The position numbers and the translations under genes are program-made. A DNA stretch of 64,000 nt from Candidatus Saccharimonadia bacterium (GTDB lineage Bacteria; Patescibacteriota; Saccharimonadia; Saccharimonadales; Saccharimonadaceae). Shown here piece after piece: positions 20,482 through 28,292 of this stretch. The stretch spans positions 1 through 64,000 of the forward strand of contig JALRBJ010000001.1 of the NCBI GenBank assembly GCA_023257815.1. Reading direction: 5' to 3'. Below the pieces are notes generated by a model that was given only the letters and a program-made list of their open reading frames with translations, did no database searches and was not told the origin of the DNA. The first letter of the stretch is position 1, and every line of letters starts with the position of its first letter.

Positions 20482-21618
20482 TTAATGAGTATGTTCAAGG
20501 CGAGCTAAATCAACATAAATTCCAGCCCAAACCATACCAGGGTCACCGCGGTACACTGGTGCGTAGTACCAGCTGCCGTCCTTATTAAGCATTTCTGGGA
20601 AGGTACCGTGTTGTTCAATCATACCTTTAGCAAACCGTTCACGTTGCTTCTTAAACTCTGGGCGGTTAAACCGACGCAGCGTGTGTAGGTAGAACATGCC
20701 GTGCCAGCTCCACAAAGTATTGCCTTCATATTCAGGCATAAATGGTGCGGTCATCCACCAGTGGTACGTAAACTCACCTGGTTGTTTGGTGTAAATCATT
20801 GGGAATGGGTCATCATAATTATTATCGGTTATATAATCTAGTGTTGCACCTGCTAATGCCTCGTCTTCGATTACACCTAAGAAGAACGGAAATAGGGCAC
20901 ACTCAGCACTAAATGCATTTGTGGAGCGGTCGGCATTGAAATACTGTCCATTCCAGTAGCGTGTAATGAGTTCTTTCTGGTATTTTTGTAATGAATATGG
21001 AAAGTCTTGTAAACCAAGCTGTTCTACACAGTAGGCCATTCTGGCAATCAATGTTACGGCGTAGGCACTCCGATCATACACTACGGCATCGCGCATTTCG
21101 GCGAATTTGATTGGACGCAGATGGCCGGTCGTATCAAGGTATTTTTTGCAATATTTACGTAGTTCATGCGCTAAGAACTTACGTTCGGATTTGTTCAGGT
21201 CGTATCCAGATACATGCAGACAGTGTAATAACCAAGGGAGGCTATCGACTGCGTGCATCGGCGCATTAAAGCAGTTGCCGTATTTGTCTATACAGGTAGT
21301 TACTCCGGCTGATTTTCGGTAGTGCATCAACGCCCATTTTAGAGTGTGTAATACGTGCTTTTTGCGTCCGGTCTTTACGAGTGACTCAGCAGTCGTACCA
21401 AAGTCACGCATCCAAAAGAAGTCAAAGTGCCCAAGACTCGTTAAATAAAAGTCGCCGTTCCATAGTTCATCAACGATTTGATTGCAGATCTCTTCGGCAT
21501 TGCCTTCGAATCGTCTGATTTTTCCAAAGTAGCGGTGGTACAGTTCGCGCCATTCAGCACGCACTGTACCAAAAATACGACCACTGGTTCGATTAAAGCG
21601 CTGAGTGAGTGTAGCCAT
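20482..21618 (-). CDS. Cytosolic six-hairpin-glycosidase-like protein (GH15/GH63-like fold)
   Basis: 378 residues without signal or membrane segment. The sequence has the aromatic-rich helix pairs of an (alpha/alpha)6 barrel: GHFDFFWMRDFGTTAESL, NCFNAPMHAVDSLPWLLHCL, RDAVVYDRSAYAVTLIARM, YEGNTLWSWHGMFYLHTL and DGSWYYAPVYRGDPGMVW. Similar patterns occur in glucoamylase, trehalase and amylo-1,6-glucosidase type enzymes. Likely acts on alpha-glucans or disaccharides; the substrate cannot be set. A TATACT box ends 8 nt before the ATG. Confidence 0.65.
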   Translation of the reverse strand: MATLTQRFNRTSGRIFGTVRAEWRELYHRYFGKIRRFEGNAEEICNQIVDELWNGDFYLTSLGHFDFFWMRDFGTTAESLVKTGRKKHVLHTLKWALMHYRKSAGVTTCIDKYGNCFNAPMHAVDSLPWLLHCLHVSGYDLNKSERKFLAHELRKYCKKYLDTTGHLRPIKFAEMRDAVVYDRSAYAVTLIARMAYCVEQLGLQDFPYSLQKYQKELITRYWNGQYFNADRSTNAFSAECALFPFFLGVIEDEALAGATLDYITDNNYDDPFPMIYTKQPGEFTYHWWMTAPFMPEYEGNTLWSWHGMFYLHTLRRFNRPEFKKQRERFAKGMIEQHGTFPEMLNKDGSWYYAPVYRGDPGMVWAGIYVDLARLEHTH

Positions 21619-23407: not shown

Positions 23408-24511
23408 ATGTCAAAAAGAGATTATTATGAAGTTCTAGGCGTTTCTAAAGATGCCAGTGATGATGAACTGAAGAAGGCTTTTCGAAAAGCTGCTGTAAAA
23501 TACCACCCCGACAAAGAAGGTGGTGATGAAGCAAAATTCAAAGAAGTCAACGAAGCCTACGAAGTTTTAAAAGACAAACAAAAACGCCAACGTTATGATC
23601 AGTTTGGCCATGCAGGCGTAGGCGGTGCATCTGGTGGTGGCTATTCAGGTGGAAATCCATTTGAAGGATTTGGTGGTGGCCAGGGCGGCTTTGAATTCAA
23701 TTTTGGTGATGGTGGCTTGGGTGATATTTTTGGCCAATTTTTTGGTGGTGGCCAGGGCGGTCAGCGTGGTCCGGTGCGTGGTCGCGATGTAGAAACACAG
23801 ATTCAACTTAGTTTTGAAGAAGCAGTATTTGGCGTCGAACGCGACATGGCCTTTGATATGGATGATGAATGCTCGCATTGTCATGGAAGCACAGTTGAGC
23901 CTGGGCACGAACTTAAGACTTGTCCAACGTGTAAAGGCGCAGGTCAGCAAACCAGAGTGGTCAATACTATGTTCGGTGCAATTCAGCAGGCAGTTACCTG
24001 TGAAACCTGTAGTGGTAGGGGTAAGGTGCCCGAAAAAGTATGTACTGTGTGTCACGGTAAAGGTACTGAACGTCGTAAGCAGACCATTACTCTTAAAGTG
24101 CCCGCCGGTATTGATGATGGTGCGACCATTCGCCTAAAAGAGCGTGGCGAGGCGACAGCTAATGGTCCGAAGGGTGACCTATACGTTCATATTCGGGTAA
24201 AGGCTCACAAGCATTTTACGCGTGAAGGTGATCTTATTCTTAGTGAAGAGCATGTGAGTATGATCGATGCTGCACTTGGTACTGAAATTGATGTCGAGAC
24301 TGTTGATGGTAAGGTTCGCATGAAGATACCTAACGGCACGCAAAGCGGCACCGACTTTAAGCTTTCGGGTCACGGCGTACCGCATCTTCGCAGTGATCGG
24401 CGGGGTGCACATATTGTTTCAATTATTGTTGATACACCAACCAAGTTGAGTAAAAAACAAAAAGAACTACTTGAGCAATTTGGTGGCTTAAAGAAAAAAA
24501 GTATATTCTAG
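23408..24511 (+). CDS. dnaJ: Chaperone protein DnaJ (Hsp40, class I)
   Basis: DnaK co-chaperone, 367 residues. J domain with HPD (YHPD, residues 33-36), a G/F-rich linker (about 76-125), four zinc motifs [22 protein letters not shown] and CTVCHGKG, then C-terminal beta domains. All zinc cysteines are present. It has its own CIRCE promoter, separate from dnaK, and is followed 4 nt later by an ATP-grasp gene that may be co-transcribed. Confidence 0.97.
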
Positions 24512-24515
24512 AACT

Positions 24516-25427
24516 ATGTCACGAAGTGTACTTATTATTGGTGGTCGAAATACTGATCACGGCGAATCAGAGGTTATGGCGGGGTATGCTAGCTATTTTA
24601 TCAAGGGAGTTAAAAATGTAACGGCATCATACGCACATTTTGATGACCTAAGCTTTGTTATTGCTCCTGATCGATTTGCGATCTACGATCACCGCAATGA
24701 ATGTAGTCTTGATACGTATGATCTGATTGTATTTAGGGGTAAGATTCGGATAAATAACGAGCTTGCGTATTGTGTAAGTAGGTATTGTACGCTCAACAAT
24801 ATTCAATTCTTCAATGACTATACGCCATATCGACCAGCTTCAAAAGTTTCGCAGGCTGTAACGTTTCATGAACTTGGTGTGCAATTCACTAAAACCGTCT
24901 ACGCTATGCGACCAGATATTTTGCGTCGCGTTGTTGAGACCGAATTAACTACACCATTTATATTAAAAGATAGCTATGGCTCACATGGTAATGATAACTA
25001 TCTCGTGAACAGTTTTGATGCTGCTGTAGCGATACTGAATGATTCATCGGAGAAGAAGTTTATTGCACAGGAGTTTTTCCCCAATGATTGCGACTATCGT
25101 ATATTATGTATCGGAGCCGAGACATTTATTATCCGTCGAAGGGCAAACAGAGAATCGCATCTTAATAATACTTCTCAAGGTGGAACTGCAGAAATCGTAC
25201 CCGAGACGTTTTTCCCATCAGTGAGTATAGAACAAGCCCACGCTATCGCGTCTGACCTAAGGATGGGAATTGCTGGCGTTGATCTACTATATAACGAAAA
25301 TACGGGCGAGTATGCATTTTTGGAAGTTAACTCACAGCCTCAGCTCAATAGCGGCGCATTTCCCGCTGAGAAACAAGAAGTAGTGCGGCGCTATATCAAC
25401 TTGCTTCTTGATCGAGTGACGGGCTGA
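24516..25427 (+). CDS. RimK-like ATP-grasp ligase of unknown substrate
   Basis: 303 residues. The pre-ATP-grasp N-terminal domain begins RSVLIIGGRNTDHGESEVM. The ATP-grasp core has PFILKDSYGSHGNDNYLV (glycine-rich nucleotide loop), FIAQEFFPNDCDYRILCIG, an arginine-rich strand FIIRRRANRESHLNNTSQGG and Mg-binding GVDLL … AFLEVNSQPQL. These match the RimK/D-Ala-ligase-like superfamily that joins an amino acid or peptide to a carboxylate through an acyl phosphate. It starts 4 nt after dnaJ and overlaps the convergent unknown gene by 37 nt. Related to, but clearly different from, RimK at 26865. Confidence 0.8.
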   Translation: MSRSVLIIGGRNTDHGESEVMAGYASYFIKGVKNVTASYAHFDDLSFVIAPDRFAIYDHRNECSLDTYDLIVFRGKIRINNELAYCVSRYCTLNNIQFFNDYTPYRPASKVSQAVTFHELGVQFTKTVYAMRPDILRRVVETELTTPFILKDSYGSHGNDNYLVNSFDAAVAILNDSSEKKFIAQEFFPNDCDYRILCIGAETFIIRRRANRESHLNNTSQGGTAEIVPETFFPSVSIEQAHAIASDLRMGIAGVDLLYNENTGEYAFLEVNSQPQLNSGAFPAEKQEVVRRYINLLLDRVTG

Positions 25428-26332
25428 AACTCAGAACTACTCATAATATAGAGGACGTTACGGTGCTCGGAGTCGCTGAAGGAAGTCTTATTTGACTGAG
25501 CCGTGTCATTAATAGTATCAATTAAAAAGTCACCATCCGGACTTTTCGATTGCCTTGCTTCATTTTCGACTATTGTAGAAAGAATGGTCTCATAATCTGC
25601 TAGCTTGCAACACACAAGAAACTCAAATTTATTGTCAAGATTCACTGTGTTTAGGCTTCTTGATATTGTATTTTCTATCCGTTCAAGCATAACTTTGTAC
25701 TGAGGGTAAAGGTTGGTCTGTACCTTATTTTGATAAAAATTACTTTGCCCAATAATACAGTGAGTAAATAGATAGATCATGAGTAGTGTATCATCGGGAT
25801 TTTTACCGTAATGTGTTGCTTCGGCAAGAACACGATCAAGAAATTCATTCATATCTTTACCACGAGGGAAAAGAATGACCTCAACGAGATAAATGTAATT
25901 GATAGCATACGTAGAAAGTATCATCAGCGCTTTGGTATCGCTCATCAATTTATCTGATAGCTTGTAAAGCTCGTCGATTGAAATAAGCTTGAGAAGATCT
26001 TCGCGCGTATCAACGTCGTAGTGATAAAGTAAGTGCCTTACTCGAAATAGTGCAAGCATGCGACCGCGCAAAGAGGGATATTTGGCAAAATACGGAGCAC
26101 GACGTTCGGCAGCATTAATCTTCGCCTTTGGAGGATTGTCAATCAAATCCTTAAAGAATACTTCAGGATTTTCCGGTATCATTCTACTGCGGAGCTGGTC
26201 GAGTCTATCGACTGCTCTAGAATCTCTGGCCCAAGACCCAAGGCGTGATACAAAATGGAACTGTTTATCCCCGGGCAGGGAATCAAAATTGTCATAGTAA
26301 TACTTAGCTATGACATCTGCAAGACGGGCCAT
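25391..26332 (-). CDS. Unknown 313-aa protein in the ATP-grasp cluster
   Basis: Mostly alpha-helical, soluble-looking protein with no recognised motif. Features: an N-terminal basic/aromatic region (YYYDNFDSLPGDKQFHF), a helical centre with TYAINYIYLVEVILFPRG, and a Ser/Asn-rich C-terminus. It has AAGGAG 7 nt before the ATG, unusual for a first gene here. It runs against the flanking ATP-grasp genes: its 3' end overlaps the ligase at 24516 by 37 nt, and its promoter region is shared with the divergent rimB-like gene. It could be a substrate, regulator or partner of the ligases. Confidence 0.7.
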   Translation of the reverse strand: MARLADVIAKYYYDNFDSLPGDKQFHFVSRLGSWARDSRAVDRLDQLRSRMIPENPEVFFKDLIDNPPKAKINAAERRAPYFAKYPSLRGRMLALFRVRHLLYHYDVDTREDLLKLISIDELYKLSDKLMSDTKALMILSTYAINYIYLVEVILFPRGKDMNEFLDRVLAEATHYGKNPDDTLLMIYLFTHCIIGQSNFYQNKVQTNLYPQYKVMLERIENTISRSLNTVNLDNKFEFLVCCKLADYETILSTIVENEARQSKSPDGDFLIDTINDTAQSNKTSFSDSEHRNVLYIMSSSEFQPVTRSRSKLI

Positions 26333-26388
26333 TACTGCTCCTTATGATGCTTGATTATTTTTAACAACTATGCTATAATATAACATAA

Positions 26389-26868
26389 ATGACAGTAAAA
26401 AGTAAAGATAAGACGATCATTGGTCGTGCTGAGAGAGTAGTGTTTCCTACATGCGGTCGCGGCTTTCTTCATGCACGTATAGACACAGGAGCCAAAACAT
26501 CATCGATCTGGGCAACAGATATACAAGAGACTGATAATGGTCTGATCGTTCGTTTGACGGATCCAGAGTATGATATATATCAGCACATTCAAACATTTAA
26601 ACATTTCGATCGTGTTAGAGTAGCTAGTTCAATGGGTCACGAACAGATTCGCTATAAAGTAAAAATACCGATCATTATTAGGAGTCGCAAGATTATGGCA
26701 ACATTTACGCTTGCCGATCGTAGCACGCAGGTATATCCAGTATTGATCGGACGCAACACACTACAGGGAAAATTTATTGTTGATGTTTCCAAAGGTTCTC
26801 CGCTTAAAGAAAAAGAGCGGGAGCGATCAATGGTTTTACAGCAAGGTGTTAAAGAGGAGCATGTATGA
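26389..26868 (+). CDS. RimB-like retropepsin protease (COG4067)
   Basis: 159 residues. The hallmark is ARIDTGAKTSSIWA (residues ~29-42), the D-T-G-A aspartic-protease-like motif of the ATP-dependent zinc protease/RimB family (PF05618). Later VYPVLIGRNTLQGKFIVDV matches the family's second conserved block. In proteobacteria RimB trims the poly-glutamate tails that RimK adds to ribosomal protein S6. Here it lies directly before rimK with an ATGA overlap, supporting the same pairing. Promoter: extended -10 TGCTATAAT, 9 nt from the ATG. Confidence 0.88.
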   Translation: MTVKSKDKTIIGRAERVVFPTCGRGFLHARIDTGAKTSSIWATDIQETDNGLIVRLTDPEYDIYQHIQTFKHFDRVRVASSMGHEQIRYKVKIPIIIRSRKIMATFTLADRSTQVYPVLIGRNTLQGKFIVDVSKGSPLKEKERERSMVLQQGVKEEHV

Positions 26869-27770
26869 AAATCGCAATTTTAAGTAATGGTCCAGGTAAC
26901 TACACTACAAAACGCCTCAAGGAAGAAGCTAAAAAGCGTGGCCACGAAGTAAAGGTTATCAAATACAAAGATGCCTATACTGCAATTGAAAAAAATACAG
27001 CTACAGTTCGCTATAAAGGTGAAAGCCTGGAAAAGTTCGACGCCATCATTCCTCGAATTGCCCAAAGTTATACCAAATACGGTACTGCCATCGTGCGTCA
27101 GTTCGAATCACAGGGTACCTTCACGACTGCTAGTAGCTTGGCCATCAACCGTTCCCGCGATAAACTGCGCGCCTATCAAGTGCTTGCAAAAGCTGGCGTA
27201 GGGATTCCTAAGACCGTATTTGCTCGTGAGTCTGCTAGCTTCGATGACATCGTAGATCTTGCTGGCGGTACACCACTTATTATTAAGGTAGCGCGTGGAA
27301 CACACGGTAACGGCGTTGTACTTGCTGAAACGCCAAAGGCTGCTAAAGCCGTTATGCAGGCTTTCTATGTAGAAGGCGTGAACTTTTTGGTGCAGGAATT
27401 TGTTAAGGAATCTGCCGGTACGGATATTCGGGCGCTCGTAGTTGGTGGTCGCGTTGTAGCAAGTGTGAAGCGACAAAGCTTAGACGGTGATTTCCGTTCA
27501 AACACTCATCAAGGTGGCGAAGGTATCGCTGTTAAACTAACCGAAGAAGAGCGCAAAACTGCAATTAAGGCAGCGAAAGCTATGGGACTACCAATTTGTG
27601 GTGTAGATATGATGCGGAGCGAACGTGGCCCACTTGTGCTTGAGGTAAATTCGTCTGCAAGCATTAAGACGCCTGAATCGGTAACCAACCGAAATGTTGC
27701 CGAAAAGATAATTGAATACATTGAACAGAACGCTAAACGTCGCCCGAAAAAAGATAAAATCGGCGCGTAG
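26865..27770 (+). CDS. rimK: Ribosomal protein S6 glutamate ligase (RimK family)
   Basis: 301-residue ATP-grasp ligase closely following the E. coli RimK pattern: GGTPLIIKVARGTHGNGVVL, FLVQEFVKESAGTDIRALVV, GDFRSNTHQGGEG and GVDMMRSERGPLVLEVNSSA. RimK adds glutamates to the C-terminus of bS6 and can make free poly-glutamate. The S6 gene is not in this window, so the target is inferred. Coupled to the retropepsin gene by a 4-nt overlap. The C-terminus is basic (KRRPKKDK). Confidence 0.88.
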   Translation: MKIAILSNGPGNYTTKRLKEEAKKRGHEVKVIKYKDAYTAIEKNTATVRYKGESLEKFDAIIPRIAQSYTKYGTAIVRQFESQGTFTTASSLAINRSRDKLRAYQVLAKAGVGIPKTVFARESASFDDIVDLAGGTPLIIKVARGTHGNGVVLAETPKAAKAVMQAFYVEGVNFLVQEFVKESAGTDIRALVVGGRVVASVKRQSLDGDFRSNTHQGGEGIAVKLTEEERKTAIKAAKAMGLPICGVDMMRSERGPLVLEVNSSASIKTPESVTNRNVAEKIIEYIEQNAKRRPKKDKIGA

Positions 27771-27806: not shown

Positions 27807-28292
27807 ATGGATGTTGCAGTGATTATTCTTGCGGTTGCGATTGTCTTGTTCGCATTAGCGTACTTCACCAAGCGTCGTTTTGGTGTGCTTGGGTTGGCGC
27901 TTGCGGCCGGTTCAATGCTTAGCAATCTTTGGGCGGCTAAGTTAACACCGATTGTGCGTGATGCTGGGTTAGTGATTCAGAACCCACCGCTTATTACTGT
28001 GGTCTCGGTTATGTTGGTTTTGTTGCCTGCAATAGTACTACTTTTTAGTGGCCCAAGCTATCATAAGATACATCAACGTATCATTGGGGCATTGTTATTC
28101 GCTGTTTTAGCGGCTGCGTTACTGGTAGAACCGCTTAGCTCTGCTATGGTACTAATTGGTGATGGTAAGCAAGTGTATGAGTTTGTAAATGATAATCGTG
28201 TATACATAATCACTGTTGGTTTGGTAATCGCATTAATCGATTTACTGAGTGTACATTCGACTCGTCGTGGTAAACACGGCGATAAGCATTGA
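27807..28292 (+). CDS. Four-TM membrane protein, possibly CvpA-like
   Basis: 161 residues with four to five hydrophobic helices (about 3-20, 25-45, 60-80, 90-110 and 128-145) and a basic tail (STRRGKHGDKH). CvpA-family proteins have similar size and layout, but no diagnostic motif is certain. It stands alone before tRNA-Lys. No function assigned. Confidence 0.65.
   Translation: MDVAVIILAVAIVLFALAYFTKRRFGVLGLALAAGSMLSNLWAAKLTPIVRDAGLVIQNPPLITVVSVMLVLLPAIVLLFSGPSYHKIHQRIIGALLFAVLAAALLVEPLSSAMVLIGDGKQVYEFVNDNRVYIITVGLVIALIDLLSVHSTRRGKHGDKH

Follow-up and report, generated by a model that had tools for sequence, protein, structure and literature searches.

Two described bacterial systems come closest to the locus discussed here. 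In the RimABK system of Pseudomonas, the RimK ligase and the RimB retropepsin act on RpsF (PMC11957791). The RloABC system comprises a secreted retropepsin, an inactive transglutaminase seven-transmembrane (7TM) protein and the ATP-grasp protein RloC (PMC12239564). The locus in question occupies positions 24516-27770 of a 64,000-nucleotide stretch, hereafter the window, of contig JALRBJ010000001.1 (assembly GCA_023257815.1) from a Candidatus Saccharimonadia bacterium. It encodes RimK (P0004), a RimB-like retropepsin (P0003), a second ATP-grasp protein (P0001, here AG2) and a 313-amino-acid protein (P0002, here UNK). The association of these genes is strong, and the locus is a real, conserved extension of Rim-type tail editing. 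No description of an AG2/UNK extension was found in the literature searched. Our favoured reading, to which we give a probability of about one half, is one of a functional module, joined to RimK, in which AG2, UNK and the retropepsin together edit acidic protein tails, with AG2 and UNK as the added ligase and partner.

The likeness to RimABK starts with RimK itself (301 amino acids, 26865-27770, plus strand). The protein matches PF08443 (5e-55) and Rimk_N (PF18030, 1.5e-34) over its full length in Pfam. It scores 249.5 bits against TIGR00768, over the cut-off of 143.4, and 317.5 bits against the S6-specific NF007764, just under the 331 needed. Its nearest PDB chains are the Pseudomonas and E. 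coli RimK proteins. Judged by these matches, P0004 is RimK. The retropepsin (159 amino acids, 26389-26868, plus strand) matches PF05618 (2e-17; 63.8 bits, cut-off 27). Its active-site motif D32-T-G-A is invariant over 14 relatives, as are R88, R111 and R122. In RloA, the residues that matter most for polyglutamate cleavage are R114 and R137 (PMC12239564), and matching by spacing makes the invariant R88 and R111 their equivalents. A retropepsin was found in 92 of 119 sampled genomes. The 4-nucleotide overlap (ATGA) between rimB and rimK makes their translational coupling credible. This coupling, the RimB-RimK fusions of relatives and an acidic tail on ribosomal protein S6 complete the resemblance to RimABK. 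However, the window locus adds AG2 and UNK, and it has no RimA-like cyclic di-GMP (c-di-GMP) phosphodiesterase between its flanking genes dnaJ and MEM. In addition, its retropepsin reaches only 58.6 bits against the RimB equivalog NF052261, for which the cut-off is 200.

An earlier sequence-only reading of this DNA had proposed the coupling of rimB and rimK and had described the four genes. All four open reading frames are where it placed them, although it left unsaid that UNK lies on the minus strand and that AG2 begins 4 nucleotides after dnaJ. Its view of the second ligase as distinct also stands, as AG2 (303 amino acids, 24516-25427, plus strand) is a RimK-superfamily ATP-grasp protein with intact catalytic residues that forms a clade apart from RimK and does not cluster with an unrelated known family. 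AG2 matches PF08443 (4.3e-13; 50 bits, cut-off 21), has no Rimk_N domain in Pfam and lies below every NCBIfam cut-off. Membership of the RimK family fails at 57 bits against TIGR00768 (cut-off 143). The AlphaFold2 model of AG2 has a predicted local distance difference test (pLDDT) score of 94.2, and its best fold match is E. coli RimK (5zct, E=2.5e-15). A PDB profile search places AG2 much nearer RimK (1e-25) than AMdnB and other graspetide ligases (about 1e-5). AG2 retains the residues expected to bind ATP and metal (Mg), and K110, K151, R195, R208, N218, D256, E270 and N272 are invariant. In place of the RimK motif F-R-S-N-x-H-x-G-G, AG2 carries H-[hydrophobic]-N-N-T-S-x-G-G. The motif arginine of RimK is thereby lost in nearly all AG2 sequences, which suggests that substrate specificity is altered relative to RimK. 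A FastTree phylogeny with long branches sets most AG2 sequences apart from RimK, and one clade in it holds eleven UNK-linked AG2s, that of the window included. A genome-wide count at E<=0.001 gives exactly two RimK-family domains, and both lie at this locus. Several UNK loci have a third, very divergent ATP-grasp gene (about 325 amino acids) directly upstream of AG2 (L045:4385-5359, L110:9832-10812, L140:7750-8748).

UNK (25391-26332, minus strand) had been assigned to an unknown family. It is true that no family is matched over its cut-off, yet by profile matches UNK is a remote relative of DUF3541 (PF12060), though not a member by cut-off. PF12060 is matched by 20 of 27 UNK-family members (best 2e-8), whereas the window UNK scores 18.9 bits, under the gathering cut-off of 28.2 (sub-threshold E 7.5e-4). 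A literature search for DUF3541 found no paper that mentions it. The AlphaFold2 model of UNK is all-helical (pLDDT 94.6, predicted template modelling score 0.93). No PDB relative was found by fold at E<=0.001, and none was convincing by sequence. Complement C5 was considered as a fold relative and is unconvincing (best template modelling score only 0.39, E=0.3). Over 27 sequences, 15 residues are invariant (H26, R30, R78, F96, Y187, T190, H191, Y200, D233, E237, D272, E289, H290, R291 and L294). They are mostly polar and would fit a functional pocket. UNK was not found in a search of viruses, plasmids and phages.

How closely do these genes travel together? Throughout the order, the genes of the locus follow one another as dnaJ, in some cases a further ATP-grasp gene, AG2, UNK (reversed), rimB, rimK and MEM. 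Often dnaK precedes it, and DnaJ flanks most of the Saccharibacteria loci examined. AG2 (over 60 bits) is present in 25 of the 119 sampled genomes and UNK in seven, and six of these seven carry both (Fisher p=3e-4). In a set of 393 genomes UNK is matched in 23, a few times as weak fragments only, and in about 16 genomes it is convergent (tail-to-tail) with a separate AG2 gene. UNK occurs without AG2 at the locus in G037, G189 and UBA6039, and in G257 a contig end truncates the locus. The distances of AG2 and UNK co-vary (Mantel r=0.59, p=2e-4), and they still do so after RimK and DnaJ distances are removed (partial r 0.60), although both the Fisher and the Mantel p-values are optimistic because the genomes are related. 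The Mantel r is 0.38 for UNK and RimB and 0.03 for UNK and RimK.

Fusions tie the genes further. In G231, a genome of the same family, ATP-grasp, UNK and retropepsin form a single 773-amino-acid protein whose gene overlaps rimK by 4 nucleotides (L129). ATP-grasp-UNK fusions are found in L117, L119, L123, L127 and L160, retropepsin-AG2 fusions in L046, L054, L055, L059, L060 and L064, and the opposite order, AG2-retropepsin, in L047, L057, L058 and L061. Retropepsin-RimK fusions also occur. RimB-RimK hybrids have already been published (PMC11957791), and no report of UNK or AG2 fusions was found in the literature searched. AG2, UNK and the retropepsin therefore behave as one module that is inherited, swapped and sometimes fused together, and the fusions and co-variation rule out a chance neighbourhood. 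Genes, gene order and fusions are all found repeatedly in Saccharibacteria and outside them, and the many fusions tie retropepsin and ligases functionally, which supports the sequence-only reading in its idea of a conserved neighbourhood and of ligases and retropepsin working together. That reading had no view of the fusions, of the cassette-like replacement described next or of MATCAP-like carboxypeptidases as the alternative occupant. Separately, a contig of another patescibacterial family (G502; L162:1-11000) carries several consecutive ATP-grasp genes together with a retropepsin gene and a diverged relative of UNK.

The swapping is best seen within the genus. DnaJ is 81-88% identical among congeners, and between the window and G281 DnaJ is 81-84% and RimK 94-95% identical, whereas AG2 is only 30-35%, UNK 26-27% and RimB 40% identical. 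Elsewhere in the genus, different genes stand between dnaJ and rimK. The slot contains a MATCAP-like protein with RimB in G124, G288 and G344, MATCAP with AG2 and RimB in G129, two MATCAP-like proteins with AG2 in G289 (where RimK is more divergent, at 63-64%) and a Mur-ligase/cyanophycin-synthetase-like protein in G161. Most of the other occupants are of ligase or peptidase type (MATCAP, Mur ligase, further ATP-grasps, GATase). The dnaJ and rimK flanks thus stay fixed, and the genes between them are replaced in the manner of a cassette. In one same-genus genome the Mur-ligase protein of the slot is nearest the C-terminal half of cyanophycin synthetase, and RimB is missing (L220:4807-6087).

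MATCAP (PF08014, the tubulin tyrosine carboxypeptidase family; TIGR02421, QEGLA) deserves comparison with UNK. MATCAP-like proteins occur in 32 of the 119 genomes, within 5.5 kb of a retropepsin in 19 of those 32, and HExxxH and a downstream Glu are invariant in 12 of 12. UNK and MATCAP share a genome once in 393, on different contigs, where 6.3 co-occurrences were expected (p=0.008, a guide only, as the genomes are related). The two therefore look like alternatives for the same slot. However, UNK has no HExxxH and no sequence relation to MATCAP. MATCAP-like metallocarboxypeptidase relatives lie beside rimB-rimK in many Saccharibacteria, for example at L218:5307-6776, L067:2951-4405 and L219:6001-7380, the last assigned by clustering and motif, not Pfam. 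A literature search for MATCAP or DUF1704 with ATP-grasp proteins in bacteria found no papers.

The likeness to RloABC is one of logic, retropepsin plus ATP-grasp. The window locus falls outside that system, having no 7TM transglutaminase protein and an AG2 that the RloC-type model TIGR02291 does not match, whereas RloB- and RloC-type genes are present at the UNK loci L119 and L127 of Moraniibacteriota. In this phylum UNK is fused to an ATP-grasp and adjoins two genes, one for a 7TM protein like RloB and one for a fusion of an RloC-like protein with a retropepsin, which means that UNK is found alongside systems of the Rim type and of the Rlo type. In these Rlo-like operons (L119:1421-6254, L127:141-5120) the 7TM_transglut protein apparently lacks the transglutaminase part, and an RloC-type ATP-grasp-retropepsin fusion is encoded. 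A penicillin-binding protein gene comes next after the Rlo-like/ATP-grasp-UNK genes in L117 and L127.

What is the substrate? Perhaps everything acts on S6, with RimK polyglutamylating its tail, the retropepsin trimming it, and AG2 and UNK capping or varying the same tail. The genes do sit with RimK, RimK and RimB act on RpsF (PMC11957791), and the S6 of the window genome ends DDEEE, the acidic tail that the sequence-only reading had proposed to look for. However, when about 46 genomes were compared, acidic S6 ends were found in all classes, regardless of AG2/UNK and also where RimB is missing, which disqualifies the tail as a discriminating substrate. Moreover, AG2-UNK pairs lie away from rimK in G314 and G380, and UNK-ATP-grasp genes occur in genomes without a close RimK (G457, G502, G672 and G257). 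For these reasons an acceptor other than S6 is possible. S6 may still be a target, but that it is the only one we consider rather unlikely. A different idea, a little less probable again, is that the product of the ligases and UNK is not a modified protein but a small peptide or a cofactor (an amino-acid chain, a carrier-bound intermediate or poly-alpha-glutamate). RimK-superfamily relatives do include LysX, MptN and CofF, RimK makes free poly-alpha-glutamate with stimulation by RimB (PMC11957791), and the slot of G161 holds the cyanophycin-synthetase-like Mur ligase. Yet other pathway genes are missing from the locus, and retropepsin and MATCAP-type partners imply polypeptide substrates. It also counts against a small product that reduced Saccharibacteria genomes retain few biosynthetic pathways.

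Two further proposals seem much less probable. The fixed flanks, the extreme replacement between them within a genus and the fast divergence of AG2 and UNK would suit a conflict-related locus, in which exchangeable modules guard or mark proteins of translation in conflicts with phage or competitors. But the occupants are housekeeping-type ligases and peptidases, and Pfam and NCBIfam found no known defence, toxin or mobile-element genes in the slot, where the PADLOC library was not run. We think this account improbable. Least probable of all is biosynthesis of a graspetide, a ribosomally synthesised and post-translationally modified peptide, with AG2 making ester or amide crosslinks in a precursor that UNK or the retropepsin helps to mature. 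AG2 evolves fast, and graspetide loci of the candidate phyla radiation can have peptidases and no detectable precursor (PMC8939145, branches 1 and 2). However, AG2 is nearer RimK than AMdnB-type ligases in the profile search above, and the locus shows neither an exporter nor a cluster-23-like lipoprotein. A local precursor peptide is ruled out by lack of space, as the intergenic gaps are 4, 56 and 36 nucleotides and the remaining junctions overlap.

Several observations also weigh against the favoured module joined to RimK. UNK is absent from 19 of the 25 AG2 genomes, some AG2 loci lack a retropepsin (L048, L056 and L062), and both UNK and MATCAP are also found beside RimB-RimK without AG2. 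The UNK-fused ATP-grasps, mostly outside Saccharibacteria, form a clade different from AG2, on long branches. No catalytic motif is recognised in UNK and no relative of it has a solved structure, so it may be a non-enzymatic specificity factor. S6 tails fail to separate genomes with and without AG2/UNK, and the association p-values are optimistic as stated above. The sequence-only reading, which had suggested either another substrate or a wider system of adding and trimming, pointed in the right direction and is supported in part. S6 is a candidate target of the extra genes, and any substrate of AG2 or role of UNK is at present a proposal.

How would the favoured module work? RimK would add glutamates to acidic tails, as its family suggests, and the retropepsin, given its family and conserved residues, would trim polyglutamate (PMC11957791, PMC12239564). 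The edited tails would be acidic, most likely those made or extended by RimK. With a changed specificity, AG2 would use ATP to add what RimK does not, be it another residue or a peptide. UNK would be a dedicated partner of AG2, its conserved polar residues binding or processing the AG2-modified tail, and would fill the place held by the MATCAP-like carboxypeptidase in relatives.

The remaining features of the locus can be dealt with briefly. The conserved left flank, dnaJ, is an open reading frame at 23408-24511 (plus strand), its stop codon 4 nucleotides before the AG2 start. UNK is antisense and overlaps the 3' end of AG2 tail-to-tail by 37 nucleotides, and 56 nucleotides separate it from the divergent rimB. 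This gap holds a candidate sigma-70-like promoter for rimB-rimK (26351-26379, plus strand; TTGATT-17-TATAAT, TG before the -10), a consensus match only, in a region where the total of such matches equals the chance number. The right flank, MEM (27807-28292, plus strand), is a conserved 161-amino-acid hydrophobic protein that recurs after rimK in most loci and matches no Pfam family. A 378-amino-acid protein at 20482-21618 has a weak glycoside-hydrolase-116-like (DUF608) match, and congeners have relatives close to the locus. GGDEF-type (diguanylate cyclase) or similar proteins are encoded near dnaJ and rimB-rimK at L053:656-1258, L137:3729-4379 and about nine other loci, an assignment made by Pfam for L053 and by clustering for the others. 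Pseudomonas RimK responds to c-di-GMP, so by analogy a regulatory link between these neighbours and RimK is possible.

Other bacteria tune their translation by RimK/RimB tail editing, and a conserved locus with exchangeable ligases and peptidases would show that such editing is modular. More tentatively, and with odds that we put well below even, the locus might be a bacterial "tail code" in the manner of the tubulin code. In it polyglutamate would be written by RimK and erased by the retropepsin, and a second writer open to exchange (AG2, a Mur-type or another ligase) would work with a second eraser or reader that is exchangeable too (a MATCAP-like carboxypeptidase or the UNK family). If this is true, UNK would be a new class of tail-processing enzyme. 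From a modular locus of this kind, DUF3541-like proteins and bacterial MATCAP relatives, for neither of which a role was found in the literature searched, would gain a testable one, and new protein modifications would be predicted in the reduced-genome Saccharibacteria.

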